DNA of 24,501 nucleotides. It comes from a virus. The position numbers were made by a program, and so were the translations under genes. Location: the IMG/VR virus record IMGVR_UViG_3300031825_000380, positions 1-24,501 of that record. The stretch is one strand, 5' to 3'. Of the stretch, positions 3,743 through 24,501 are shown piece after piece. Position 1 is the stretch's first letter; every line of letters begins with the position of its first letter. The notes beneath the pieces are model-generated. The model saw only the letters and a list, made by a program, of their open reading frames with translations, did no database searches and was not told the origin of the DNA.

Positions 3743-4399
3743 TCACCTCGGCGTCACGACGATCGCCGGCTGCCGGCGCAGCCACTCGGCCCGTCGCGCG
3801 CCCTTCGATCGCGATTTCATGCCGGTCTTGCCGGCCCATTCGTCGACCGCGCCGAAGAGCGGGGCGCGGTAGCTGAAGCGGATCCGGGCGAGGTTCCCGA
3901 ACCGCTTCGCGGCCATCACGGCGACGGCCTGATAGACGCCGTCGGGCGCCTGGTCCGACTGCCCCCGCTCGATCTTCCGCGCGTAGGGCTGAAGGTTCAC
4001 GAAGGCCGCCTCCTCGAAACGGCCGGGCAGCGGTGCGCCGGCCGCGATCTCGACGCCGTCCACCGTGAAGACGTGCGAGCGCGCGTAGCGACCGGTGAGG
4101 GTCGGCGACGCCTCGACGAGCGCCCGCCCGATCCACTGCAGCATGTCCTCGAAGAGGTCGAACTCGGCGACGATCACACCCCGCGGCGAGACGCTGTCGA
4201 GCGGCGCGCCGAGGCGGCCGTCGACGGTGGTCTCGTGCGGCGGCACCCGCCCGAGGGCGCGCGCGTTCTGCGAGGCCGCCTCGTCGATCGCCTCTCGCGC
4301 CGCGGCCGCCAGCGACCGGCTCTGCGCCTCCGGCGACAACTCATCGTCGATCAAGGCGAAGATGGCGCGATCCGGTGACCGGCTCGACCTGACTGCCAT
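3743..4399 (-). CDS. Neck / tail completion protein in the HK97 gp10 (gpZ) position
   Basis: This 218-residue protein begins MAVRSSRSPDRAIFALIDDE. It has a helical Ala-rich N-terminus and a basic C-terminus (GKTGMKSRSKGARRAEWLRRQ). The start at 4399 overlaps the upstream stop as TGATG. It sits between the head closure protein and the tail terminator, where HK97-type phages encode the gp10/gpZ family that completes the head-proximal tail end. Similarity to HK97 gp10 itself is not obvious by eye, so the role is inferred from synteny. Confidence 0.68.
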   Translation of the reverse strand: MAVRSSRSPDRAIFALIDDELSPEAQSRSLAAAAREAIDEAASQNARALGRVPPHETTVDGRLGAPLDSVSPRGVIVAEFDLFEDMLQWIGRALVEASPTLTGRYARSHVFTVDGVEIAAGAPLPGRFEEAAFVNLQPYARKIERGQSDQAPDGVYQAVAVMAAKRFGNLARIRFSYRAPLFGAVDEWAGKTGMKSRSKGARRAEWLRRQPAIVVTPR

Positions 4400-4746
4400 C
4401 ACCCGATCACCCGGACGCCATAGGCGATGAGCACGCCGCCGATCCGCCGCATCGAATCGTCGACCGCGACCGGCGTCGTCACTGCGCCGCGGATGACGAT
4501 GCGGTCCCGGCCGTTCATCTCGATCGGCACCGGGAACGAGCCGATGTCCTCGGCCATGAGCACGACGAGCCGCTCGCCCTGCTGCACCCCCTCGACGAGA
4601 TCGACGGGATCGTAGCTGGTCACCCGCGCCCGCATCGTCACCTCGGTCGCCTGCTCGGGTGACGGGTTGAGGCGGCGCAGCGTGACGGTCTCGCCGAAGG
4701 CCTCGATCATCCGCCGATAGGTCGCGAGCGCGCGCGCGGCGGGCAT
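4399..4746 (-). CDS. Head closure / head-tail adaptor protein
   Basis: This 115-residue protein begins MPAARALATYRRMIEAFGE. After the N-terminal helix it is mostly beta: TVTLRRL, VTMRARVTSYDP, ERLVVLMAEDI, DRIVIRG, GVLIAYGVRVIG. This small beta-barrel pattern is typical of head-tail adaptors of the SPP1 gp16/HK97 gp9 kind, which seal the connector after packaging. Both ends overlap neighbours as TGATG, so it is coupled to the connector and neck genes. Confidence 0.72.
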   Translation of the reverse strand: MPAARALATYRRMIEAFGETVTLRRLNPSPEQATEVTMRARVTSYDPVDLVEGVQQGERLVVLMAEDIGSFPVPIEMNGRDRIVIRGAVTTPVAVDDSMRRIGGVLIAYGVRVIG

Positions 4747-5372
4747 CAGAAGATCCGGAACGGTGCGAGCAAGAGCGAGCACGCCCGATCGTAGGAGATG
4801 CCGACGACGTCCGACGTCGTCCAGTCCCACGACCCAACGCCGGTGACCTCTTCGCGCCGCAGCAGGGCGTCGGGCCGCAGCAGCGAGCGGAGGTAGCCGA
4901 CCCGAAGCACGATCGCCTGACGGATGGGCTCGGGAACGTCGGTGCCGGCGGCGCCATATCCCGCGACGAAGCGAACCCGCACCGACTGCTGGCCGGACGC
5001 CCCGGACGGCCATCCGCCGGCGGCGCGGGCCGGAATGATCCGAGCCGGGGTGCCGGGCAGCACGCGATAGGCCGACGGCGCGACGATCGTCTCCTCGCCC
5101 TCGGCGTCCGTGATGCCGATCTCGCTCACCGACTGATAGGGCGGCAGCGGCAACCGAATCTCGCACGGGAACCCGTCGAGCAGCAGATCCCACGTCTGAT
5201 TGATGAGCGCCCGGCCGAGCCACCCCGCCGAACCGTCGATCTCCTGCCGAGCCGATGTGATCAGCGCGCCAAGAACCGCGTCCGAAACGCTGTCCGGCAA
5301 GCCGAGCCGCGACCGCACATCTGCGGCCGTGAGCGGCTCGACCGCCGGCGGGGTGACGAGGACGAGGGTCAT
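4746..5372 (-). CDS. Head-tail connector protein (gp6-like, phage_connect type)
   Basis: This 208-residue protein begins MTLVLVTPPAVEPLTAADVR. The 'P.V.PLTAADVRSRLGL' start followed by 'LITSARQEIDGSAGWLGRALI' is the characteristic helical N-terminus of the gp6-like connector family, which forms the ring below the portal. The middle is the usual beta insert (CEIRLPLPPYQSVSEIGI...), and the end returns to helices. It follows the capsid and small head genes and precedes the head closure gene, matching HK97 order. The start overlaps the upstream stop as ATGA. Confidence 0.87.
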   Translation of the reverse strand: MTLVLVTPPAVEPLTAADVRSRLGLPDSVSDAVLGALITSARQEIDGSAGWLGRALINQTWDLLLDGFPCEIRLPLPPYQSVSEIGITDAEGEETIVAPSAYRVLPGTPARIIPARAAGGWPSGASGQQSVRVRFVAGYGAAGTDVPEPIRQAIVLRVGYLRSLLRPDALLRREEVTGVGSWDWTTSDVVGISYDRACSLLLAPFRIF

Positions 5373-5581
5373 CCGCGCGGCTTCCGGACGCGGGGCTTGG
5401 TCGTCGTTTCCGGCGCCGGATCGCGCGTCGCGGTCTCGGCATCCTCGGCGTCACGGACCGGCACCGCGTAGCCGGCCTCGACGAGGCGCCCGGCCTCGGC
5501 GTCACCGAAGCGGTCCGTCTCGTCACCGGGCGACAGCACGAAGTCGCCGCCGGCGAGGCTCACCAGCATCCTGATCTTCAT
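5369..5581 (-). CDS. Small head-region protein (70 aa), uncharacterised
   Basis: The chosen start MKIRMLVSLAGGDFVLSPGD at 5581 is preceded by GGAG with six bases between GGAG and ATG, the same arrangement as the capsid gene; ATGs at 5593 and 5632 lack this. The core 'GDFVLSPGDETDRFGDAEAGRLVEAGYAVPV' is a small fold often seen next to capsid genes (a strand pair, a helix and an 'aG.A' turn). The tail is charged and Pro/Thr-rich and ends in KPRVRKPRG. The function is not known to me. Location between capsid and connector suggests a head accessory role. Confidence 0.72.
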   Translation of the reverse strand: MKIRMLVSLAGGDFVLSPGDETDRFGDAEAGRLVEAGYAVPVRDAEDAETATRDPAPETTTKPRVRKPRG

Positions 5582-5600
5582 GTCGATCTCCATGGTGAGG

Positions 5601-5624
5601 CCGGGCGGCCCGAAGGCCGCCCGG
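5601..5624 (-). other. Perfect 10-bp hairpin with UUCG loop between capsid and downstream genes
   Basis: The arms CCGGGCGGCC and GGCCGCCCGG are perfectly complementary. The minus-strand transcript places UUCG in the loop with a closing C-G pair, the exceptionally stable tetraloop. It lies between the capsid stop (5645) and the next start (5581). There is no U-run after it, so it may be a pause, an mRNA-stabilising 3' end or a leaky terminator rather than a classic terminator. Confidence 0.85.
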
Positions 5625-5644
5625 AGCGTCACCCCGACGAGGCG

Positions 5645-6913
5645 TTACGAAGCGGCGGTGATGAGGTGCTTCACGGCGGCCGTGTCGCCGAGCTCGCCGT
5701 CGAAGCGGATGAGGCCCGCGATGCCCATGTCGGGCCAGAAGCGCTCGCGAAGCACGCCGATGATCGGCGAGCCGACCTTGCGGACGAAGTACTTCGAGAA
5801 GTCGCCGAACAGCATGACCTTCTTCGCCGCGGCGAGCGAATCCATCGCCTGGTTGATGCTGTAGGGCCGGCCGTTGAAGCTGCCGGGGATGCCCTTCTGC
5901 ACATCGCCCTGCTGCCACAGATAGTTGCCCTGGCCGTCCTTCAGCTTCCGGACCGCGTTCAGCGTCGTGTCGTTGAACATGTACCGGGCCTTCGGCGACG
6001 CCCGATAGGCGGGATCGACCGAGTGCTCGAGGTCGATGATCTCGTCCCACGTGATCGCCGCTGTCGCCGCGGCCGTCTTGCCGAGCGTCGACGCCGTGAC
6101 GATCCCGTTCGGCGCCGACGAGCCGGTGCCGGTCGTCAGCTGGGAATTCGCGATGCGCCCCAGCCGCTCGCCGAGCAGCGCGCCCAGCAGGGTCTCCATG
6201 CTGAAGATGGAGTCCATGTCCAGTTCCCACGACCACCGGATGAACTCGGTGTCGAAGGCGTAGGCGTCGAGCGACTTCTGCCCGAAGACGACGTCCTTGC
6301 CGCCGTCGTCGGTGAGCGCGGTCGCCTCGGTGTGCGCCTCGGCAGTGGACGCGGTATCGTTGACCGTCGGCACCTTCATCGAGTTGCCGCTCGCGGTGTT
6401 GATCGGGGTGCAGATGGCCTCGTCGTACATCGGCCCCCACGCCTTCATCGAGAGGATGATGAAGTCCGCGAGCGTGGTCGGCACGGTGAAGCCGCCGGCG
6501 GTCGTGGTGCCGGCCGTCTGGGCGCGCGCCTCGAACTTCGCCGTGCCCTGGCGGAGAACCGCCCGCTCCTCGGGCTCGAGCTCGGAGATGTCGACACCGC
6601 AGATCACCTTGGCGAACACCGCCCGGTATTCGGGCTTGGCGCCCTCGTCCTGGCCGCCCGCCTCGCCGTCCGACCCGGCCGGCCGGTTCTTGGCGCGCTG
6701 CTCGGCGGCCTTCGCCTCCATCGCGGCGACACGCTCCTCGCGCTCGATCTGGCGCTCGATGCGGTCGTGCTCGGCCATCGCGGCGTCGTGCTGACCCTCG
6801 AGCTCCTTCGCGCGCGCCTCGTCGGTCGTCGCGCTGATCAGGTCGAGCCGCTCGCGGGCCTCGGCGACGATCTTCGCCTGGCGCTCACGCAGTTCCTTGA
6901 GCTTCGCGCTCAT
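5645..6913 (-). CDS. Major capsid protein, HK97 fold
   Basis: This 422-residue protein forms the icosahedral shell. The start MSAKLKELRERQAKIVAEAR at 6913 is favoured by GGAG six bases upstream; in-frame ATGs at 6919 and 6925 are too close to that site. Residues 1-90 are a long charged coiled coil, the delta (scaffolding) domain that the prohead protease removes in HK97. A low-complexity Gly/Glu linker follows, then the capsid core with TAGTTTAGGFTVPTTLADFI, a very typical N-arm to E-loop region of the phage_capsid family. Length fits the family. The gene is separated from both neighbours by UUCG hairpins, unlike the tightly overlapping genes elsewhere, consistent with separate control of its high dose. 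Confidence 0.95.
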   Translation of the reverse strand: MSAKLKELRERQAKIVAEARERLDLISATTDEARAKELEGQHDAAMAEHDRIERQIEREERVAAMEAKAAEQRAKNRPAGSDGEAGGQDEGAKPEYRAVFAKVICGVDISELEPEERAVLRQGTAKFEARAQTAGTTTAGGFTVPTTLADFIILSMKAWGPMYDEAICTPINTASGNSMKVPTVNDTASTAEAHTEATALTDDGGKDVVFGQKSLDAYAFDTEFIRWSWELDMDSIFSMETLLGALLGERLGRIANSQLTTGTGSSAPNGIVTASTLGKTAAATAAITWDEIIDLEHSVDPAYRASPKARYMFNDTTLNAVRKLKDGQGNYLWQQGDVQKGIPGSFNGRPYSINQAMDSLAAAKKVMLFGDFSKYFVRKVGSPIIGVLRERFWPDMGIAGLIRFDGELGDTAAVKHLITAAS

Positions 6914-6931
6914 GCTCATCTCCATGAAGAA

Positions 6932-6947
6932 GCCCGCCGAAGCGGGC
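6932..6947 (-). other. UUCG-loop hairpin between prohead protease and capsid genes
   Basis: The arms GCCCGC and GCGGGC enclose CGAA on the plus strand, giving C(UUCG)G in the minus-strand transcript. It ends about 20 bases before the capsid start and is followed by TTCTTC, a weak pyrimidine tract. It could be a leaky terminator, a processing site or a 5' stabiliser of the capsid message. Confidence 0.75.
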
Positions 6948-6977
6948 CGTTGATGGGATTGGGCGAAGGCGAGCGCC

Positions 6978-7577
6978 TTACGCTTTACTCCGGACCCTCA
7001 GGTCCAGGTCAGCCTTCAGCCGCAGGCGCCGGGCCGCGGCGTTGAAGTTGTGCTGGCGCCGTTCCCGCCGCGCCTCGTCGAGCGAGCGCAGGGCGATCGA
7101 CGTCCCGTCATAGGCGGGCTCCGAGACGATCGAGACCTCGAAGAGCTCGACTTCCTTGATCGTCCGCGTCGACACATCGCCGGTCTCGTCCCACTCCTGT
7201 CGGGTGACCATGAAGCCGAACGACATGCCGGTGAGGTCGCCGCGCGCGATGAGCTCGCGCACGTCGCGCCCCGACGAGGTGTCAGGGAGGTCGATCTCGA
7301 CCGCGAGGCCCTTCGCGTCTTCCTTGAGCCGCAGCGTGCCCGACGAGGAACGGCCGAGAAGCCGCGTCCGGTCGTGTCCGAAATAGGCGCGGACGTCCGC
7401 CGTCTTCAGCGTCTCGGTGAAGGCGCCCCTCTCGATCACCTCTCGGAACGCCCCCCCGATGTCGGCGACCGTTCCGAAGACGGCGGCATAGCCCGCCACG
7501 GTGACCTTGGCGCCATCCTCGCGGTGCTCGACCGGGAACAGCAGCGAGCGCTTTTCGGCCTCGGGCTTCGTCGTCAT
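6978..7577 (-). CDS. HK97-family prohead protease (peptidase S78)
   Basis: This 199-residue serine protease matures the procapsid by cleaving the capsid delta domain. It starts at MTTKPEAEKRSLLFPVEHRE, with ATGA overlap to the portal stop. Family landmarks are 'GYAAVFGTVADIGGAFREVI' near residue 29, 'RAYFGHD' with the likely catalytic His68, 'LTGMSFGF' with the likely nucleophile Ser119, and 'LFEVSIVSEPAYDGT' near 145-160. The C-terminus is basic (RRERRQHNFNAAARRLRLK). Length matches the family. It lies between portal and capsid, as in HK97. Confidence 0.95.
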   Translation of the reverse strand: MTTKPEAEKRSLLFPVEHREDGAKVTVAGYAAVFGTVADIGGAFREVIERGAFTETLKTADVRAYFGHDRTRLLGRSSSGTLRLKEDAKGLAVEIDLPDTSSGRDVRELIARGDLTGMSFGFMVTRQEWDETGDVSTRTIKEVELFEVSIVSEPAYDGTSIALRSLDEARRERRQHNFNAAARRLRLKADLDLRVRSKA

Positions 7578-8830
7578 GGCTTCGGTCCATCCTCGTCGGA
7601 AGGGCTGCCCGGCGGCGAGCCGGCGGCGGAGGAACTCGCGGGCGCCGTGCCGAGCACGACCGTCGCCCCCTGGACGAACAGTTCGTCGGCCGCCGGATTG
7701 GCGTGCTTCGGCCGGTTCTCCAGCGCGCGGCCTTCGTTCGGGGTGAGCAACCCGCCCTGCACGCCGCGGACGATGCCCTCGATCCGGGACTTGAAGTCGC
7801 CGCGCATCAGGCCGTCGAGGTTGTGCTCGACGAACCGGCCGCTGTTGAACCGACCGAACAGCTTGAGGTTCATCTCGCCTTCGAGCGCCTGCGCCCACTG
7901 ACCGATCAAGTGCTTGACGAGGTGCAGATCCTGCTGCTCGGCATTCGAGAACGTCGCCCGGCTGAGATCCTGCAGGAACACCGGCGGCAGCTGGTAGGTC
8001 CGCGCGATCTCCTCGACCTGAAACCGCCGCGCCTCGGTCATCTGGCCCTTTTCGGGGTCGTAGCCGACCTGCTTGAGCTCGTGCCCGGGCGGCATGGGGA
8101 AGATCGGCTTGTCGCTCCTCTTCGCCGCGTCGATCGCCCGGTGAATGTCCGCCATGGCGCGCTTCAGTGCCTCGGGCCCCTGCGGTAGCGGTCCGGAGAG
8201 CGCGAGCGGGGGAACGCCGCCGCCGGCAAAGAACGTGCTCGCATAGTCGTTCATCGCGAGCGCGAGCTGGATCGCCTTCGCGGCCATCGCGATCGGGCCG
8301 TAATGGCGCAGGCCGTCGGCCCGCAGCATGAACGGCACGTCGATGACGTCGGCTGCGGGGTATTCCTTGCTGTCGAACCGATAGGTTGTCCGGCCGCCGG
8401 AGCGCTTGATCTGGACCCGCTTCGGATCCATCGGCCAGAGCGCCTCCACGCCCGTCGGCGTGCGCTCGATCCAGGCCAAGCCGCGGCCGCCAGTGAACAC
8501 CTGCTGCCAGAAGTAGGCGCGGAATTTGAACCCATCCTGTTCGTCGTTCGGGTTCTCGTGCACCACCGTTTCGAGCTTGCCGCTGATCCGGACAGGTCCC
8601 TCCTTCGTGTTGCGGAAGGCATGGAGCGGAAGGCTCGCGAGCGTCCGCGACAGGAAGGCGACCGCGGCCCACACGGCCGGCACCGCGAGCGCGCTGTCGA
8701 TCGTGACGTTCGGCAAGTTCGCGGAGCCAAGGCCGAAGAACTGCAGGAAGTTCTCGGCGCTCACCGGGACGCGCGGGTCCTCGATCGACGACCTGGTCTC
8801 GCGGCGAATGTCGAGGCCGAGGAACTTCAT
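7574..8830 (-). CDS. Portal protein (HK97 gp3-like)
   Basis: This 418-residue protein forms the dodecameric portal through which DNA enters and leaves the head. It starts at MKFLGLDIRRETRSSIEDPR, overlapping the terL stop as ATGA. Recognisable phage_portal features include 'ALAVPAVWAAVAFLSRTLASLPLH', 'WIERTPTGVEALWPMDPKRV', 'KFRAYFWQQVFTGGRG', 'QMTEARRFQVEEIARTYQLP' and 'AEQQDLHLVKHLIGQWAQALE'. The C-terminus is Pro/Ser/Gly-rich and overlaps the protease start. Length is normal for the family. Confidence 0.95.
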   Translation of the reverse strand: MKFLGLDIRRETRSSIEDPRVPVSAENFLQFFGLGSANLPNVTIDSALAVPAVWAAVAFLSRTLASLPLHAFRNTKEGPVRISGKLETVVHENPNDEQDGFKFRAYFWQQVFTGGRGLAWIERTPTGVEALWPMDPKRVQIKRSGGRTTYRFDSKEYPAADVIDVPFMLRADGLRHYGPIAMAAKAIQLALAMNDYASTFFAGGGVPPLALSGPLPQGPEALKRAMADIHRAIDAAKRSDKPIFPMPPGHELKQVGYDPEKGQMTEARRFQVEEIARTYQLPPVFLQDLSRATFSNAEQQDLHLVKHLIGQWAQALEGEMNLKLFGRFNSGRFVEHNLDGLMRGDFKSRIEGIVRGVQGGLLTPNEGRALENRPKHANPAADELFVQGATVVLGTAPASSSAAGSPPGSPSDEDGPKP

Positions 8831-10698
8831 TCGGTGGCCTCCATCAGCGAGAACTCCGGATCGTCCCACGGCGACGAGGCCGGCAGGCTTTCGCTGAAGT
8901 CCGTCATTGCCGCCCCGACCCCCATCGCCAGCGTGACGACGCCATCAATCCGGCCGCGCGAGCGCTTCTTGTCGAAGGCTCGGTTGTCCTGCCCGTCGCT
9001 GTCGATCTGGGCGTTGGCAGCGCACGAATAGGTCACCGGAGAGGAGTCGACTGTGATCGTCCTCGTCAGGATTGCGTCCTCGAGGCGCTCGATCGAGCGC
9101 GGCATCGTCAGCTGGCGATCTTCGAAGCGGACCTGCTTGCCCTGTGTGTGGGCAACCATCTTCAGTCCTTGCCCCTCGGGTTCACCCGGCCCCTTCCAAC
9201 GCCAGACAGGGAAGCCGATCTCCTCGCAAGCGGCGATGAAGTCGGCCATCCCGGCAGGGTCGAAGGCGAGGAACTGGACGTCGTGCTCGGCGACGAGCCG
9301 CTGCACCTCGGCCGCCACGAACGTCTTGTCGATGACGGCGCCTGGCACCGGAGCGATGAAGCCCTTCTCGGCCCACTGATCATAGGGCACGAGGTCGGCC
9401 TTCGATCGGTCGGCCAGGCCATCCTTCGTCGTCCAGTACCAGGTCTTCGCGTAGAGGCGCCCGTCCTCGCCGATCCACACTGCCGTGAGGGCCGTCAGGT
9501 CGTTCTTCTTCGACAGGTCGAGCGAGAGCCAACAGGGACGCCCCTTGAGCGAGGCGACGTCGACCTTGCCTTGGACGGCGGACCAAGCCTCCTCGGCGAT
9601 CCAGAAGTCGGTCGAGCCTATCGGCACGCCGAAGTAGAGCCGCTTCACGGACAGCGAGGTCGACAGCAGCGACTTCGCCGTCTTCACCATCCCCTCGATG
9701 TTCTCTCGGGGGAACGTGACGCCGAGCGCCGGCAGCGACTTCGACCAGCACGCCGGGTTGTCGAAGACGGTCTCCCGGTCGGCTTTGTCGATGCGGGCGA
9801 CGAAGGCGAAGGCCTCGTCGTCCTCGATCTCGCCGAGGGCGACCTTCTGATAGAACTCCGAGTACTCGGTGCCGACGATTTGTGTCGACGCCGGCGTGTT
9901 CGTCCCGAGCAGCATCAGCGCATCGCCGGGCATCTTGGCGATGGCGTTCTTCCAGATCTCGATGGACGTGCTGTTCTTGAATTCGTGGATCTCGTCGGCC
10001 GCAACCAGGGTCGGCTTCGGACCCGACGGCGACTCCCCGTTGGCGAGGGACTGAAACAGCGCGTCCGTCGCCGGGAACTCGATCTTCCAGGCGTTGTCGC
10101 CTTCACCTCGGATCAGGACGTGGCCGAGGCTGACGAGAGTGTCTTCGACCTCCGGATCCGGATCGGGGATCCGCGCCCGGCACATGGCTACGGCATCCTT
10201 GAAAAGGACGTTGGCCGTCTGCTTGTCCTGCCCGATCGCGAAGGCCTTCGCCCGTTGCACGCCGTAGAAGCCGGTCATGTAGAGGCCGATCGCCGCCATC
10301 AGCGGCGACTTCGCCTGGCCCTTGCCGGTCTCCAGCCATGCCGAGCGGAAGCGCATCCGCCCGCTTGTCTTCCGCCAGCCGAACAGCGAGCCGACGACGA
10401 AGACATGCCAGGGCAGCAGACTGAACGGCAGTCCGACCTTCGCGCCTTCCGTGATCGTCAGCATCACCGGCGGAAACGCGAGCGCATGCTCGGCCCTGTC
10501 CGGCTCCCACCGCAGGCCGCGATCGCCCCCCGTGTCCAGATCCCTCAGGTGTCGGCGCGCAGCGGCGATCTCGATCTCGCCTGCAGCCTCACCATCCGGC
10601 CGGCGCCCGCTCGCCACCGCGACGGCATAGGCCGTCGTCGGGTCGTCAGGATACCGAGCGGAGGAAGCGGTCAGCGGCGCGCGGCGCTTTCTTGGCAC
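8827..10698 (-). CDS. terL: Terminase large subunit (HK97 gp2 / Terminase_1 type)
   Basis: This 623-residue motor ATPase and nuclease packages DNA through the portal. The start is a GTG at 10698, inside the end of terS (53-base overlap); the residues that follow are family-like (DDPTTAYAVAVASG, then ARRHLRDLD). A Walker A variant TGKGQAKS lies at residues 124-131, and Walker B LVAADEIHEF with Asp235/Glu236 near 231-240. The C-terminal nuclease has acidic positions in 'WLSLDLSKKND' (Asp394), 'LAFDPAG' and 'GRIDGVVTLAMG'. These motifs fit the Terminase_1 family, typical of cos-packaging HK97-like phages, though packaging mode is not proved. It is followed directly by the portal gene. Confidence 0.95.
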   Translation of the reverse strand: MPRKRRAPLTASSARYPDDPTTAYAVAVASGRRPDGEAAGEIEIAAARRHLRDLDTGGDRGLRWEPDRAEHALAFPPVMLTITEGAKVGLPFSLLPWHVFVVGSLFGWRKTSGRMRFRSAWLETGKGQAKSPLMAAIGLYMTGFYGVQRAKAFAIGQDKQTANVLFKDAVAMCRARIPDPDPEVEDTLVSLGHVLIRGEGDNAWKIEFPATDALFQSLANGESPSGPKPTLVAADEIHEFKNSTSIEIWKNAIAKMPGDALMLLGTNTPASTQIVGTEYSEFYQKVALGEIEDDEAFAFVARIDKADRETVFDNPACWSKSLPALGVTFPRENIEGMVKTAKSLLSTSLSVKRLYFGVPIGSTDFWIAEEAWSAVQGKVDVASLKGRPCWLSLDLSKKNDLTALTAVWIGEDGRLYAKTWYWTTKDGLADRSKADLVPYDQWAEKGFIAPVPGAVIDKTFVAAEVQRLVAEHDVQFLAFDPAGMADFIAACEEIGFPVWRWKGPGEPEGQGLKMVAHTQGKQVRFEDRQLTMPRSIERLEDAILTRTITVDSSPVTYSCAANAQIDSDGQDNRAFDKKRSRGRIDGVVTLAMGVGAAMTDFSESLPASSPWDDPEFSLMEATE

Positions 10699-11077
10699 GT
10701 TCCACCTTGGTCACCGCACCGCGCCGCCGCGGCGACAGGCCGAGCTCGGCCTCGATCACCGCCGCATCGCTGCCGGCCTCGCGCATCACCGTGAAGTGCG
10801 GGCTGACCCGCGCGATGGCCTTGCTGTTGCCCCGCCGCGGCTTCGTCACGGCGCCGTGCTCGGCGACCTCTCGCGAGGCGCGGTCGAAGATCAGGTAGGC
10901 GCAGACGAGCCGCTGCATCGCATGGGCGTTCGCCGGCGCTAGCAGATCGCGGTCGCGAAGTTCGGAGACGACCCGGCGCCAGTGCTCCTGCGCGGCGGCG
11001 ATCTCGAGCACGTCGTTGAGCAGCGAGGACCAGTCCGGCTCCGGCACGATCTCACCCGCCCCCTCGACAACGTTCAT
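10646..11077 (-). CDS. terS: Terminase small subunit, P27 family
   Basis: This 143-residue protein recognises phage DNA and starts packaging with TerL. The start MNVVEGAGEIVPEPDWSSLL at 11077 has GGAGG about 10 bases upstream; the in-frame GTG at 11086 sits too close to that site. The layout is the P27-type one: N-terminal 'P.PDW', a long helix 'EIAAAQEHWRRVVSELRD', a central 'LVCAYLIFDRASREVAEHG', and a basic C-terminus 'SPRRRGAVTKVERAKKAPRAA' for DNA or motor contact. It overlaps terL, consistent with coupled expression. Confidence 0.88.
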   Translation of the reverse strand: MNVVEGAGEIVPEPDWSSLLNDVLEIAAAQEHWRRVVSELRDRDLLAPANAHAMQRLVCAYLIFDRASREVAEHGAVTKPRRGNSKAIARVSPHFTVMREAGSDAAVIEAELGLSPRRRGAVTKVERAKKAPRAADRFLRSVS

Positions 11078-11083
11078 GCGCTT

Positions 11084-11098
11084 CACCCCTCCGGGGTG
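11084..11098 (-). promoter_or_regulatory. Short hairpin containing the terS ribosome binding site
   Basis: The minus-strand sequence CACCCC-GGA-GGGGTG is a perfect 6-bp hairpin. The GGAGG that serves terS falls in its loop and 3' arm. When folded it would partly mask the ribosome binding site and could lower terS translation. The effect is inferred; only the inverted repeat and its overlap with the Shine-Dalgarno are seen. Confidence 0.5.
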
Positions 11099-11170
11099 CC
11101 CTCAACTTTTCCGTCTGAAACTCATCTCGGTGCGAACGGAGGTGACCCGCCGGTCCGGGACCCGATCGCC

Positions 11171-11377
11171 TTAGAGTTTCGACCCACCCCCGGGGCCGGG
11201 CTTGGCAGGGGAGGGAGCCGCGGAGGGGAGCAGGTCCTCGACCACGTCGACCACCGCCTTGATGCCGAGGCCGAGCTCGTTGCAGACCGTAGAGGAGACG
11301 AGCGAGAGCAGTTCGTCGCGGTCGATGATCCGGCGGTGCCGGCGCTCGTGAACCTCGGTCGTGGTGACCTTCGTCAT
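11171..11377 (-). CDS. Small uncharacterised protein (68 aa) between HNH and terS
   Basis: The start at 11377 (MTKVTTTEVHERRHRRIIDR) overlaps the HNH stop as ATGA; an alternative ATG at 11395 would add six residues. The N-terminal half is charged. The middle 'LLSLVSSTVCNELGLGIKAVVDVVEDLL' looks like two amphipathic helices, and the end is Pro/Ala/Gly-rich and disordered. I recognise no family. Its place between HNH and terS suggests a packaging-associated helper, but that is only context. Confidence 0.6.
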   Translation of the reverse strand: MTKVTTTEVHERRHRRIIDRDELLSLVSSTVCNELGLGIKAVVDVVEDLLPSAAPSPAKPGPGGGSKL

Positions 11378-11739
11378 GGTGCCCCCCGATTCCATGGATG
11401 CGCAGGATCGAGTGGCCGGCCGGCGGCATCACTGCCGGCGACGTAGCCGCGCCGCTCTTCCCGCTGCTTCGTGCTGTCGTGGTGGTCTTTGCAGAGCGAC
11501 TGCCAGTTGGCGGTATCCCAGAACAGCGCCTGGTCGCCTCGGTGCGGGATGATGTGGTCGACGACGGTAGCCGGCGTCACGTGGCCGGAGGCCTCGCACT
11601 TGGTGCAGAGTGGGTGATGGGCGAGGTAGGTGAGGCGGGACTTCTCCCATCGGGCGTTGTAGCCGCGGGTGCGGGACGAAGGACGCGGCGCCTGAGTGGC
11701 TAATGCCTGTGCTTCTCGATGGCGGTTGCCTTTCGCCAC
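11374..11739 (-). CDS. HNH endonuclease next to the terminase genes
   Basis: This 121-residue nuclease has a zinc-ribbon-like C45-x2-C48 pair (HHPLCTKCEASG), the His of the HNH core in 'VVDHIIPHRGD' (Asp61-His62), and 'NWQSLCKDHHDSTKQREE' with Asn79, Cys83 and His86/87. HNH proteins beside terS/terL are known in HK97-like cos phages, where some stimulate terminase cutting at cos. The start is a GTG at 11739, because a TGA lies in frame just upstream; AGGAG stands about 9 bases before it. It is the first gene of the late cluster as seen here. Confidence 0.92.
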   Translation of the reverse strand: MAKGNRHREAQALATQAPRPSSRTRGYNARWEKSRLTYLAHHPLCTKCEASGHVTPATVVDHIIPHRGDQALFWDTANWQSLCKDHHDSTKQREERRGYVAGSDAAGRPLDPAHPWNRGAP

Positions 11740-11810
11740 GCATCACGCTCCTGTCGATCAAGGCGCCGCAGCAGTCCCCTCATCAGCGGCCCCGCGATGG
11801 AGGAAGGCCG

Positions 11811-12017
11811 ATGACGAAACAGGCCACAACCCACTGGCGAGTGTCTGAGTATCCGTCGGGTCGGCCGTTCATCGTGCTTGAGCCGCTCTCTGGCGACACA
11901 CTCGCCACATTCCAGCGGACGATCGGGTTCGATCTGCCAGATGGAACGACAATTCACGAGGCGAAGGAGATAGCGGCCTTCCTTCGACTGAAGCTGCACG
12001 CGATCACCGAGACCTAG
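11811..12017 (+). CDS. Small plus-strand protein (68 aa), uncharacterised
   Basis: It starts at MTKQATTHWRVSEYPSGRPF with an excellent GGAGGAAG 4-5 bases upstream, which decides this start over in-frame codons further left. The protein has a beta-rich first half (WRVSEYPSG.PFIVLEPLSG) and a helical end 'TIHEAKEIAAFLRLKLHAI', a compact small fold. It runs against the surrounding late and early operons, so it probably has its own promoter. An inverted repeat GCTTCC-ACC-GGAAGC lies just after its stop (12026-12040). I do not recognise the family. Confidence 0.65.
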   Translation: MTKQATTHWRVSEYPSGRPFIVLEPLSGDTLATFQRTIGFDLPDGTTIHEAKEIAAFLRLKLHAITET

Positions 12018-17236: not shown

Positions 17237-17875
17237 ATGAGCGTCGGGACGAAAATTGCCGAGCACCGGGAACGGGCTGGTTTGAGCCAGAGCGCGCTCG
17301 CCCGTCGCGTCGGGGTCAGTCAGGCCACCATCGCGAAGATCGAGAGCGGGCAGACGGCGCAGAGCAAGCATCTGCCGCAGATTGCGCGGGCTCTCGGGGT
17401 CAGCCTTGGGGAGTTGGATCCTGACCTCCAGTCGCTCGGGGCCTTCCGCCCGGAGATCATCCCGGGCGAGAAGCTCGTCGGGCCCGGCGGCTTCCCGGTC
17501 TACGCCGCGGCCGAGGGCGGCAACGGCCACATGATCGTCACCTTCGACGCCGTCGAGCACGTGAAGTGGCCGTCGGTCCTCGAAGGCGTCCGCGGCGCCT
17601 ATGCGATCCTGATCGTCGGGGATTCGCTCGCCAAGGCCTACCGCCACGGCGACATGGCCCTCGTCCATCCCGGCCTGCCGCCGGCCCGTGACGAGGTGCA
17701 CGTGCTCTACCACACCCCGCCGGACGGGCAGGCGGAGGCGATCATCAAGAACGTGCTCGGCTGGAACGACCGCGTCTGGAAGCTCGAGCAGTTCAACCCC
17801 CACCTCGAGTTCGAGGAGCACCGCGTCGACTGGCCGGTGTGCCATCGGGTCGTCGGGAAGTACGCGAGGCGGTAG
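17237..17875 (+). CDS. cI: CI-like repressor: XRE helix-turn-helix plus S24-type domain
   Basis: This 212-residue protein should bind the adjacent operators and hold lysogeny. Residues 5-40 are an XRE helix-turn-helix (IAEHRERAGLSQSALARRVG, then SQATIAKIESGQ). The C-terminal half is an S24/LexA-like fold with 'AILIVGDSLAKAYRHGD'; Ser130 and Lys171 (AIIKNVLG) match the Ser-Lys dyad. The usual Ala-Gly cleavage pair is not evident: the corresponding region reads PVYAAAEGGNGHM. Induction by RecA-stimulated self-cleavage is therefore doubtful, and the family often has 'GDSM' where this has 'GDSL'. The ATG at 17237 follows GGAGG. The membrane gene 13 bases downstream is probably co-transcribed and so expressed in the lysogen. 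Confidence 0.92.
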   Translation: MSVGTKIAEHRERAGLSQSALARRVGVSQATIAKIESGQTAQSKHLPQIARALGVSLGELDPDLQSLGAFRPEIIPGEKLVGPGGFPVYAAAEGGNGHMIVTFDAVEHVKWPSVLEGVRGAYAILIVGDSLAKAYRHGDMALVHPGLPPARDEVHVLYHTPPDGQAEAIIKNVLGWNDRVWKLEQFNPHLEFEEHRVDWPVCHRVVGKYARR

Positions 17876-17888
17876 AGGGGCAATCGCT

Positions 17889-18365
17889 GTGACAGTCATT
17901 CACTTGAAGGAGCGAAATCGCCAGATTTTGAGTCTTGCAATCTGGGCATGGCTCGTGGGTTGTATTTTTCTGCTGTGGGCGTTTATCGTTCTGCCGACTA
18001 ACTATGCTGTACTTATCCTTCTGGGCACAGCTACGATTGTGGCGACCTTGCGCGTTGTAGCGACCGCGATCTCGGCAGAGTTGGCGGATCTCCAGCGCAG
18101 TCTGTGGCTGGACCACCTAACATCGAGAAAGTTCGCCGAGCGAATGATGCAGGAAAATGGGATTGGTGAGGAGAGCATTGAAATCAATTGGGAGGCTGCA
18201 CGGAAATATGCCGTCGATGATGTTAAGAATGTATATCTGAACGAATTTGATGAGCCTGGGTTCTGGTCTTTCGCTTGGCATTTTGTTTTTGCACAACTCT
18301 TTAGGTTTGTAGGTATCGGTCTAGGAATTGCTGTATATTTGTTTTTCTCCAATCTCATAAAGTAG
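17889..18365 (+). CDS. Membrane protein downstream of cI, possible superinfection-exclusion cargo
   Basis: This 158-residue protein starts at a GTG with GAGGGG about 8 bases upstream. Hydrophobic segments lie at about residues 14-35 (LAIWAWLVGCIFLLWAFIVL), 38-60 (YAVLILLGTATIVATLRVVA) and 135-155 (FRFVGIGLGIAVYLFFSNLI). Between them is a soluble charged region of about 75 residues with 'LADLQRSLWLDHLTSRKFAERM'. The gene is clearly AT-richer than cI, suggesting separate acquisition. No family is recognised. A lysogenic membrane protein right behind the repressor is compatible with superinfection exclusion, but that is inferred from place and topology only. Confidence 0.75.
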   Translation: MTVIHLKERNRQILSLAIWAWLVGCIFLLWAFIVLPTNYAVLILLGTATIVATLRVVATAISAELADLQRSLWLDHLTSRKFAERMMQENGIGEESIEINWEAARKYAVDDVKNVYLNEFDEPGFWSFAWHFVFAQLFRFVGIGLGIAVYLFFSNLIK

Positions 18366-18907: not shown

Positions 18908-20356
18908 ATGGAAAACCAAACAATTGAAAGTGTCATTCTTGATATAATCGACAATAGGGAAAGTGAAACGGCAGAATTTAAGGTTAACAACTGCGACCCA
19001 CAGCGTATTGGCGTGCTGGTTTCGGCTGTCTCAAATTCTGCCGCAATTGCTGGGCGCGCCTGTGGTTACATAGTATGGGGTGTTGCCGACGATACCGGTG
19101 AAATCGTAGGAACAACATTTAAGCCGAAAGAAGAGAAGAAGGGCGGACAACTTTTGACAGTGTGGCTGGCAAGCTGTCTGCAGCCATCGATTAGCTTTCA
19201 TTTCCGTTCAGTGACGATGTCAGGGCGAGCAGTCGTCGTCCTTGAAATTCCTGCGGCGATGGATGCCCCGACCAAATTCAATCATATTGCATACATACGA
19301 GTAGGAAGCGGAACTCCCAAGCTATCCGACTACCCGCAACGCGAAGTCGAGCTGATCAGAGCTTTAAAGCCATTCGTATGGGAGCGTGCGGCAGCTGATA
19401 CAAATGTGGGTGGCGGCAACGTTGTAAAGCTCCTCGACTGTGAGGCTTACTTCAGTCTCCTCCAATCTTCCGCACCCAAGAATTCAGATAGAGTCTTGGA
19501 GGTACTTGAGGCCGATGGATTGATCGATAGAACTCCTGGGGGAATGTGGAATATTAGAAATATTGCTGCCATCCTGCTAGCTCGACACCTCTCTGATTTT
19601 CCAAGCGTGAAGCGGAAAGCAATTCGCGTTGTCCAATATGCAGGAAGAAGCCGCACAGAAGCGATCGGCGAAATTGAAGGGGCGCGTGGATATGCAGTTG
19701 GATTTCGTGGATTAGTCAGTCACATGGAGTCTATTCTACCAAAGACGGAAGAGTACAGCGGTGCAATGAGGGAGGATAAGAAATCGTATCCCCCAATTGC
19801 GATTAGGGAGCTTGCGGCGAATGCGTTAATCCACCAAGATTTTTCGATAGCGGGTGCAGGTCCAACTATAGAAGTTTTCCGCGATCGAATCGAGTTTACA
19901 AATCCTGGTGAGCCGCTTATCGCCGTTGATAGATTCATCGACATGCCTCCCCGTTCAAGAAATGAGAACGTTGCGTCGCTTCTCAGGAGAATGCGGATTT
20001 GCGAGGAGCGCGGGAGCGGCGTCGATAAGATCGTAAGCGCAGTTGAGCAATTTCACCTCCCGGCCCCAAGTATTAGGGTTGACTGCGGAAATACGAAGGT
20101 GACGCTCTTCTCGAAAAAGCCATTTGCGAAAATGGATCGCGATGAAAAGCTAAGGGCGTGCTATCAGCATTGCGTGCTGCGGTTTGTCGAGAACTCGCCC
20201 ATGACAAATTCCACCCTTCGCCACCGGCTAGGCGTTCTAGATCGCAACTCGGCTGCGATCTCGAGGCTAATCAACCATGCCACCGAAGCTCGCCTGATCC
20301 GACAGTCGGAATCCTGGAACCCTCGAACTGGCTACTATGTCCCCTATTGGGCATAG
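18908..20356 (+). CDS. AlbA_2/Schlafen-domain ATP-binding regulator (COG2865-like), AT-rich cargo
   Basis: This 482-residue protein has an N-terminal AlbA_2 (Schlafen-type) domain at about 15-140 with 'ESETAEFK' (Glu20, Glu23, Lys25), 'YIVWGVADDTGEIVG' and 'HIAYIRVGSGTPKLS'. A middle region follows. Then comes a GHKL-like ATPase segment with 'IRELAANALIHQDF' (Asn306), 'RIEFTNPGEPL', 'SRNENVASLLRRM' and 'CEERGSGVDKI' (299-375). The C-terminal winged helix is about 413-470. These are the landmarks of the RecG-like/COG2865 regulators. Schlafen/AlbA_2 proteins include nucleic-acid-binding and nuclease members, and some act in phage defence. The gene is much AT-richer than the phage core, lacks a visible Shine-Dalgarno, and stands alone, so it is probably a later insertion. 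Confidence 0.88.
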   Translation: MENQTIESVILDIIDNRESETAEFKVNNCDPQRIGVLVSAVSNSAAIAGRACGYIVWGVADDTGEIVGTTFKPKEEKKGGQLLTVWLASCLQPSISFHFRSVTMSGRAVVVLEIPAAMDAPTKFNHIAYIRVGSGTPKLSDYPQREVELIRALKPFVWERAAADTNVGGGNVVKLLDCEAYFSLLQSSAPKNSDRVLEVLEADGLIDRTPGGMWNIRNIAAILLARHLSDFPSVKRKAIRVVQYAGRSRTEAIGEIEGARGYAVGFRGLVSHMESILPKTEEYSGAMREDKKSYPPIAIRELAANALIHQDFSIAGAGPTIEVFRDRIEFTNPGEPLIAVDRFIDMPPRSRNENVASLLRRMRICEERGSGVDKIVSAVEQFHLPAPSIRVDCGNTKVTLFSKKPFAKMDRDEKLRACYQHCVLRFVENSPMTNSTLRHRLGVLDRNSAAISRLINHATEARLIRQSESWNPRTGYYVPYWA

Positions 20357-20428
20357 GGAGCTTGATTCAAGAGTGCGTGCCTTGCAGAGGTGGCGGATTT
20401 CCTCATTAAAATTAATGGCTTATGGGGG

Positions 20429-20472
20429 CAATCATATTTGATCGCCATTTGATTTTTCGGTCAATCATATTT
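20429..20472 (+). repeat. Direct repeat CAATCATATTT, two copies 33 bases apart
   Basis: The 11-mer occurs at 20429-20439 and 20462-20472. It lies in an AT-rich tail between the converging AlbA_2 and thermonuclease genes. The 33-base offset equals three helical turns. It could be a protein-binding site or the edge of the inserted AT-rich segment. A matching copy near the left side of that segment was not seen. Confidence 0.6.
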
Positions 20473-20488
20473 AGACGGAAATGTCAAG

Positions 20489-20860
20489 CTAGCACCACGG
20501 CGCCCGCTTGGTCCGTCCGTTGTAGCGGCGGACCAAGCCCTCGGCGATCATGACCTCGCCGACGTCCCTCCCGCCAACGCGCACGATCGCCAGCGTGCGC
20601 CGGTAGCGATCCCGGCCCTTCCGCTCGATCGTGACGTAGCCGACCGCCAGCAGATCGCGGAGACGGTCCGTCGCCTTCCGGGCGAGCCGGCACTCCCGAG
20701 CACACCGGCAGTTCATCTCCGCGGCGTCGATCCCCATGATGCGGATGCGCTCATCCCCGATCCGGATCGTGTCGCCGTCGGTGACGCGGATGGCATTCTC
20801 GGCGCTAGCCGCGGTCGCCAGCGTCAGCGCCGCGGCGAGGATCAGTCCGAACAGCCTCAA
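20489..20860 (-). CDS. Secreted thermonuclease (SNase-like)
   Basis: This 123-residue nuclease starts at a TTG (20860). The TTG overlaps the upstream stop as TTGA and has GGAGGAG 5 bases before it. Residues 1-20 are a signal peptide (LFGLILAAALTLATAASA). The SNase core has 'IRVTDGDTIRIGDERIRIMGIDAAE', with Arg40 and Glu48 at the active site, and 'RYRRTLAIVRV' with Arg88. Three Cys (NCRCARECRLA, 51-57) are typical of alphaproteobacterial phage-borne members. It would degrade DNA or RNA outside the cytoplasm, for instance injected or environmental DNA. It is the last gene of a three-gene minus-strand cassette. Confidence 0.92.
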   Translation of the reverse strand: MRLFGLILAAALTLATAASAENAIRVTDGDTIRIGDERIRIMGIDAAEMNCRCARECRLARKATDRLRDLLAVGYVTIERKGRDRYRRTLAIVRVGGRDVGEVMIAEGLVRRYNGRTKRAPWC

Positions 20861-23156: not shown

Positions 23157-23521
23157 CCCGGCTTCGCCCTGACGTTGACGAAGTCCCGGAGCCCATCCGC
23201 AGGGCGTTCGAACAGCGCGCGTCGCTGTCGATCGCCGAGCTCGCCCGGCTGATGGGCGTCGACGTCGGAACGCTGCGCCGCCTCGTGCAGGACGGCGAGA
23301 TCAGCTACGTTGCGATGGGTGAGGGCTTGAAGCGGCCGCGGCGACACTTCACCCTGATCGACGTCGCCGCGTTCTACGCCCGCCGCCGGCGCCGGGAGAT
23401 GCCGCAGTGTCGGTCTACAAGCACAAGACGAGCCCGTTCTGGCACTTCGACTTCCAGCTCGACGGTCGTCGCTTTCACGGAACTACGGGCGCGACGAGCC
23501 GCCGAGAAGCGGAACGAGTAG
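23153..23521 (+). CDS. xis: Excisionase-like DNA-binding protein (MerR/Xis type)
   Basis: The protein starts MTRLRPDVDEVPEPIRRAFE. Residues 24-75 are a winged-helix excisionase fold: 'SLSIAELARLMGVDVGTLRRLVQDGEISYVAMGEGLKRPRRHFTLIDVAAFYARRR'. It would bend att DNA and direct Int towards excision. It overlaps the integrase start, as often seen for xis-int. The frame runs on for 115 bases within int, giving a basic Ser/Thr/Arg tail that may be only a by-product of the overlap. The start overlaps the previous stop as ATGA. Confidence 0.82.
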   Translation: MTRLRPDVDEVPEPIRRAFEQRASLSIAELARLMGVDVGTLRRLVQDGEISYVAMGEGLKRPRRHFTLIDVAAFYARRRRREMPQCRSTSTRRARSGTSTSSSTVVAFTELRARRAAEKRNE

Positions 23522-24501
23522 AGCGAGCCGAACGCGAGAAGGCCCGCCGCGTCGTCGCGGAGGACAAGGCGAAGGCTGCCGCCGGCTTGTCCGACATGAC
23601 CGTTGACGTCGCCTGCGGCCGCTATTGGGCCGAGGTCGGCGAGCACCACGTCAACAGCGCGACCACCTGGAAGGCGATCGAGCGCTTCGTCGACCACTTC
23701 GGCACGTCGAGGCTGGCGGACGTCTCCGATGCCGATATGGCCGAGCTCGTCGCCAAGCGCCGCGCCGGCGGCGCCGGACCCGCCACGGTCAACCGTACGG
23801 TCGTAGAGCCTCTTGCCCGCATCTTCGGCCGGGCCGCCCGCACATGGGGCGTCGCGATCCCGCGCCCGCCGAACTGGTCGGCCCATCGCATGGCCGAGCC
23901 GCGCGAGCGCGTCCGCGAACTGACGACCGACGAGGAGGATCGCCTTTTCGCGGCGATCCGGCCCGACTATCTCCCGCTGCTCGAATTCGCCATCGCCGCC
24001 GGCGTGCGCCAGGCCAACGCCCTGCAGCTGACGTGGTCGCAGATCGACGAAGGGCAGGGGGTCATCCGCATCATCATGAAGGGCGGGGAGCCGCACGTGC
24101 TGCCGATCTCCTCGGCAATCCGAGAGATCCTCGGTCGCTGCCGCGGCCATCACGAGACGCGGGTGTTCACCTACGTCGTGCACCAGGCGCGCGGGCGCCG
24201 GAAGCTCGGGGATCGCCTGCCGATCACCAAGGCGGGGCTGCGACGCGTCTGGACGAACGCGCTCGAGGCGGCCGGGATCGCCGACTATCGCTGGCACGAC
24301 AACCGCCACACGGCCTTGACCCGCGTGCTGCGCGCGACCGGCAACCTGCGGATCGCCCAACAGCTGGCGGGCCACCGCGACATCACGACCACGGCTAAGT
24401 ACAGCCACGCCTTGACGAGCGACGTCCTCGCTGCGATGGAGCGCGTCACGAAGTCCCGAGAAAAGTCCCGAGATCGACGGCGGAAAGTTTCAACAGGTTG
24501 A
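23407..24501 (+). CDS. int: Tyrosine recombinase integrase
   Basis: This 364-residue site-specific recombinase inserts and excises the prophage. The GTG start at 23407 (MSVYKHKTSPFWHFDFQLDG) follows GGGAG by 8 bases. The N-terminal 'W.FDFQLDGRRFHGTTGATSRREAER' is an arm-binding domain; residues 64-155 are the core-binding domain. The catalytic domain has Arg201 (AAGVRQANAL), Lys225 (IMKGGEPH), His297/Arg300 (WHDNRHTAL), His323 (AGHRDITTTAKY) and Tyr332. The HxxR motif reads HDNR where HDLR is usual. All catalytic residues are present. The window ends on its stop codon, so the att site, normally just beyond, is not seen. Confidence 0.96.
   Translation: MSVYKHKTSPFWHFDFQLDGRRFHGTTGATSRREAERVERAEREKARRVVAEDKAKAAAGLSDMTVDVACGRYWAEVGEHHVNSATTWKAIERFVDHFGTSRLADVSDADMAELVAKRRAGGAGPATVNRTVVEPLARIFGRAARTWGVAIPRPPNWSAHRMAEPRERVRELTTDEEDRLFAAIRPDYLPLLEFAIAAGVRQANALQLTWSQIDEGQGVIRIIMKGGEPHVLPISSAIREILGRCRGHHETRVFTYVVHQARGRRKLGDRLPITKAGLRRVWTNALEAAGIADYRWHDNRHTALTRVLRATGNLRIAQQLAGHRDITTTAKYSHALTSDVLAAMERVTKSREKSRDRRRKVSTG

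Follow-up and report, generated by a model that had tools for sequence, protein, structure and literature searches.

The stretch of DNA analyzed here, referred to as the window, corresponds to a virus record of 24.5 kb in IMG/VR (IMGVR_UViG_3300031825_000380), in which genes for tail, head, protease, terminase, and DnaB-like helicase proteins lie on the minus strand. On the plus strand, a bacterial Schlafen-type gene (18908–20356) encodes a 482-amino-acid protein with AlbA_2, GHKL ATPase, and winged-helix domains. It is placed between the gene for an S24/HTH_3 CI-like repressor (17237–17875, in a frame open from 17180), about 1 kb upstream, and a tyrosine integrase gene (23407–24501) downstream, both on the same strand. 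The left end of the window interrupts a long minus-strand open frame, a tail gene, and the integrase stop codon (24499–24501) coincides with the end of the record, a pattern that would fit trimming of a provirus at the edge of a gene. The record represents a temperate phage with a GC-rich bacterial host, and the repressor and integrase genes of this phage flank the Schlafen gene, in agreement with an earlier note on this DNA, which had read the gene as carried by a prophage.

Directly 3' of the repressor gene is the second AT-rich gene in the window (17889–18365, plus strand; GC 0.472, GC3 0.52), which encodes a 158-amino-acid membrane protein. No homolog of this protein was found among phage or plasmid records, and its gene, too, may be acquired cargo. 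A gene of normal phage GC (18528–18722, plus strand) that lies between the AT-rich pair encodes a small, secreted, Cys-rich protein (CCKVCGKGKACGNSCIARDRACRSGPGCACNG). On the other side, convergent with the Schlafen gene, is an SNase-family nuclease gene with a signal-peptide-like sequence (20489–20860, minus strand); a perfect 10-bp inverted repeat (GCTTGGTCCG/CGGACCAAGC, 20506–20538) was seen by eye at the 3' end of this gene. A tRNA search of the window found none, and no restriction-modification (R-M) or BREX genes were present among the window ORFs searched, in a record whose left end cuts a gene.

The AlbA_2 domain and GHKL-like ATPase that had been proposed from the sequence were both recovered by profile search. 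SLFN_AlbA_2 (PF04326), a predicted Mg-dependent RNase domain, spans residues 18–138 (18959–19321; E = 2e-15, 57.8 bits against a curated cut-off of 25.3), and HATPase_c_4, a histidine-kinase-like GHKL domain, spans residues 316–400 (19853–20107; E = 2.6e-21). The proposed winged helix (residues 404–482; 20117–20353) was matched in the AF2 model of the protein, but the corresponding sequence match in the Pfam scan, to MarR_2, was below threshold (0.0064). The AlbA_2 and HATPase assignments are thus firm because they come from sequence profiles, while the winged helix is assigned mainly from the model. The model, built with an alignment of 19 sequences, has a pLDDT of 88. In VIA-align comparisons, residues 8–156 resemble SAMD9 tRNase and DNA-binding domains (Z about 9; 9.1 for the SAMD9 tRNase), residues 236–403 resemble histidine-kinase ATPase domains (Z 9–10), and residues 404–482 resemble the winged helices of MarR, MecR2, Z-alpha, and Pol III (Z about 9), with the caution that a Z score near 9 may by itself reflect common folds. 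Residues 1–403 match 3lmm, an uncharacterized Corynebacterium protein, with a Z score of 22.8 and an rmsd of 15.8, the latter indicating that its domain packing differs from that of our model. Foldseek matches to the N-terminal part of the model included Schlafen 13, 14, 11, and 5. The closest relatives are about 48–50% identical to the window protein, which falls on a long branch of the tree, outside any supported group.

Schlafen AlbA_2 domains with an ExxxxExK motif cut tRNA or rRNA. In the window protein this catalytic motif (E18-SETA-E23-F-K25; 18959–18982) is intact. E18 and K25 are invariant across 19 sequences, and E23 is found in 18 of them. By profile alignment these residues correspond to E206, E211, and K213 of SLFN14, in which changes in the motif to A, Q, or R abolish RNase activity (PMC12215978). 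D61 (19088–19090) aligns with a peripheral active-site Asp (SLFN14 D249, SLFN13 D248) that is less important than the motif in SLFN14 (PMC12215978), and its position is occupied by D or N among relatives. R131 is also invariant in the alignment and is a candidate counterpart of SLFN14 R133. Within the GHKL part, the N-box (RE-AN-H; E301, N305, and H309; 19808–19834) is invariant and a GxG at residues 369–371 is conserved, whereas the G1 box has NPG in place of the usual Asp, so that ATP binding by the window protein is not assured. The gene had previously been described as an AlbA_2/Schlafen regulator. The family assignment stands, but "regulator" fits the data less well, since ExxxxExK is kept and the same architecture has been published as that of a Schlafen RNase.

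As had been noticed before, no Shine-Dalgarno sequence precedes the gene (GCCCCTAGACATTTAGCGCC-ATG); the start codon is consistent with those of homologs (MENQ.../MENR...). A leader hairpin reported at the same time did not hold up, with 76 of 200 shuffles folding at least as well as the native sequence (z = -0.24). The AT-rich 3' tail described there (20357–20488; 132 bp) does have a GC content of 0.417, and both copies of its 11-bp direct repeat CAATCATATTT are real (at 20429 and 20462), but the repeat is modest when compared with simulated tails of the same composition (p about 0.01). RNA structure in the tail was not significant (z -0.69), searches for an Rfam family and for a terminator returned none, and a promoter search gave one weak promoter-like site, within the Schlafen gene itself.

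The GC content of the gene is much lower than that of its neighbors, as the earlier note had said. At a GC content of 0.504 it is the lowest 1449-base stretch of the record, whose remaining segments have 0.683 +/- 0.023 (z = -7.8), and its GC3 is 0.501 compared to 0.86–0.95 in five phage core genes, whose GC is about 0.68. A similar tendency was observed among virus-borne relatives. In 20 such loci (17 from IMG/VR, phage Musica, and two Javan satellites, with the window excluded), the gene had lower GC than its flanks in 19, with a mean difference of -0.065. For loci on plasmids and chromosomes the count was 12 of 21, with mean differences of -0.014 (10 plasmid loci) and -0.001 (11 chromosome loci). 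The contrast between the two groups (p=0.0006, Mann-Whitney) is indicative, as the loci are not fully independent. The most extreme mismatch was a gene of GC 0.482 within surroundings of 0.709 (L115). No 10-mers were shared between the sequences on either side of the AT-rich block in the window, which hence shows no visible insertion repeats. The compositional evidence supports recent acquisition of the AT-rich Schlafen gene by a GC-rich phage.

In several phages and satellites, relatives adjoin lysogeny genes. An S24 repressor gene on the strand of the Schlafen gene immediately precedes it in L116 and precedes it in L130 with a membrane-protein gene in between; an integrase gene is directly downstream in L120, L122, and L129. 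The satellite Javan328 has an HTH repressor gene upstream and an integrase gene downstream of its relative, Javan309 has the same order, and Javan96 encodes a more distant AlbA_2/HATPase_c_4 protein. The relative in Burkholderia phage Musica (49% identity) has an integrase gene about 2.4 kb away. Eight IMG/VR loci (L119, L121, L124, L125, L127, L131, L132, and L134) have no repressor or integrase gene close by, indicating that the position is recurrent rather than universal. No copy of the Schlafen gene was seen in 80 phage loci, largely partial ones, that have a related terminase, nor in the loci of integrase relatives (L143–L146). An AT-rich dip in L144 was considered as a cargo gene and rejected because it overlaps a repressor-like gene. 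The window repressor, used as a query against viral contigs, had no match. A conserved membrane-protein partner was likewise rejected, since the one in the window lacks homologs, L130 has an unrelated one at the equivalent position, and none is present in L116 or the Javan satellites.

Other relatives are found in defense operons. The type I R-M order hsdM-hsdS-Schlafen gene-hsdR was observed at six loci (L099, L118, L135, L137, L138, and L141), among them an Acidovorax plasmid. Four of the eight Planctomycetota neighborhoods (L135, L137, L138, and, by partial matches, L141) have an hsd operon containing the gene. In L118 (IMG/VR 3300031965_001282, positions 3745–11996), a contig called viral, a candidate hsdM found by similarity is followed by hsdS, the Schlafen gene, and hsdR; a SIR2-like ORF precedes this operon. 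A Desulfosarcina relative lies inside a set of anti-phage genes, DUF499-DUF3780-DUF1156-Schlafen gene-PLD. On a Pseudosulfitobacter plasmid (L012, 6209–14838), genes for an MmeI-type methylase, an unknown protein, the Schlafen relative, a DEAD helicase-like protein, and a GIY-YIG nuclease follow one another in what looks like a defense operon. Further relatives on plasmids are unlinked to such genes and adjoin par, tra, or transposase genes. The PADLOC 2023 models gave weak partial matches only (best E 8.6e-5; PDC-S50 0.0044), with no strong full-length match. Taken together, these neighborhoods bear out the link to immunity suggested in the earlier note: homologs occur within operons for R-M or anti-phage functions as well as in the repressor/integrase modules of phages and satellites. 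They are not confined to housekeeping contexts, given the relatives in lysogeny modules and in hsd, DUF499/DUF1156/PLD, and MmeI operons.

Our preferred interpretation, which we regard as probable, is that the window gene encodes a stand-alone bacterial Schlafen protein of AlbA_2-GHKL-winged-helix (MloB-like) type, recently acquired by a temperate phage as lysogenic defense cargo. GHKL domains often have a dimer state that is switched by ATP, and winged helices bind nucleic acid. We propose that the gene would be expressed in the lysogen and that the winged helix and GHKL part would form both a dimer switch and a sensor gated by nucleic acid or ATP, responding to a trigger such as an incoming phage or one able to inhibit host restriction. 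The triggered AlbA_2 domain could then cut tRNA or another RNA through E18, E23, K25, and Mg, and the cleavage would stop translation and block the second phage. The lack of a Shine-Dalgarno sequence and of a clear promoter makes expression in the lysogen less certain. If the family acts only as a backup inside R-M or BREX operons, the orphan copy in the window may differ. A role in competition between phages, as had been suggested for this gene, is plausible on this analysis. We more tentatively raise the possibility that stand-alone Schlafen-GHKL-winged-helix proteins are a recurrent lysogenic cargo in unrelated phages and satellites, encoded either 3' of the repressor gene or 5' of the integrase gene, that could confer superinfection immunity by RNA cleavage without an R-M or BREX partner.

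Alternatively, the protein could be a transcription regulator of the lysogeny decision of its own phage, in which ATP-gated binding to DNA close to the repressor and integrase genes, through the AlbA_2 domain and the winged helix, takes the place of RNA cutting. This possibility survives because a winged helix encoded beside repressor and integrase genes could act on DNA, and it is favored by the repeated adjacency to these genes, by the C-terminal domain, and by database labels of the "putative transcriptional regulator" kind. Nevertheless, we consider it unlikely: the catalytic motif is nearly invariant and a pure DNA binder need not keep it, relatives inside hsd and DUF499/DUF1156 operons have no need for a lysogeny regulator, and no copy was seen in the phage loci with a related terminase, mostly partial.

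Two other explanations concern what the phage gains from the gene. Translation-blocking RNases of the Schlafen kind can be toxic, and the orphan placement of the gene on phages, satellites, and plasmids would suit selfish cargo, mainly an addiction or abortive toxin that gives the prophage stability rather than defense. We give this little weight, as no conserved antitoxin-like partner accompanies the gene (the upstream membrane gene has no homolog elsewhere) and the R-M linkage suggests defense. Or the gene might be a passenger, captured recently and without function for this phage. That the ORF is intact, with every family-invariant residue kept, and that a similar gene recurs in lysogeny modules of unrelated phages make this very improbable, even with the strong mismatch in composition, the lack of a recognizable Shine-Dalgarno sequence or promoter, and the absence of a close relative at the equivalent place in related phages. 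If defense by a stand-alone Schlafen protein is correct, phages and satellites have repeatedly recruited bacterial relatives of human antiviral Schlafens against rival phages, and the window would offer a partner-free version of a protein often buried in R-M or BREX operons, one whose trigger and target could be tested more readily.

Several known systems resemble the window protein in part. The fold of its AlbA_2 domain is common to SLFN13, SLFN14, and the SAMD9 tRNase, and the ExxxxExK motif is common to the Schlafens; SLFN proteins, however, have two tandem lobes and other C-terminal domains, in contrast to one lobe followed by GHKL and winged-helix domains. The window protein also matches PHROG 12156, named "DNA helicase" or RecG-like, over its full length. 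We rejected this label because the Pfam scan of the protein found no helicase motor domain, and it seems to have been misassigned by annotation transfer. Closer in setting are the proteins of Streptococcus satellites Javan328, Javan309, and Javan114, which are annotated "putative transcriptional regulator" and share 38% identity with the window protein over the full length. Those of Javan328 and Javan309, like the window gene, are encoded between an HTH repressor and an integrase gene; the satellites are low-GC, unlike the GC-rich window phage, and have no composition mismatch of comparable size. In the Campylobacter type I R-M locus, mloB (cj1552c) lies between hsdS (cj1551c) and hsdM (cj1553c) (PMC9769813). 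A 47% identical homolog on a Cereibacter plasmid is annotated "MloB," and other homologs lie between hsdS and hsdR, whereas no hsd genes were found among the window ORFs searched; the likeness to Campylobacter MloB is drawn from name and locus. In a 2026 survey of BREX, a Schlafen RNase joined to a minimal histidine kinase and a wHTH was found in close linkage with BREX core loci, across at least 1017 taxa (PMC12839542). This three-part architecture is that of the window protein, whose relatives are likewise linked to methylase and helicase defense operons, although the copy in the window is a solitary one within the lysogeny module of a phage, with no BREX or R-M genes found in the record. 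Members of the class are frequently, but need not be, encoded in operons of BREX, BREX-related, or type I R-M systems, and many plasmid and phage relatives also lie outside such operons. With an AlbA_2 domain, a histidine-kinase-like ATPase, and a predicted winged helix in one chain, the window protein is, as judged from its sequence, a divergent member of the known Schlafen-GHKL-wHTH (MloB-like) class in a phage setting.
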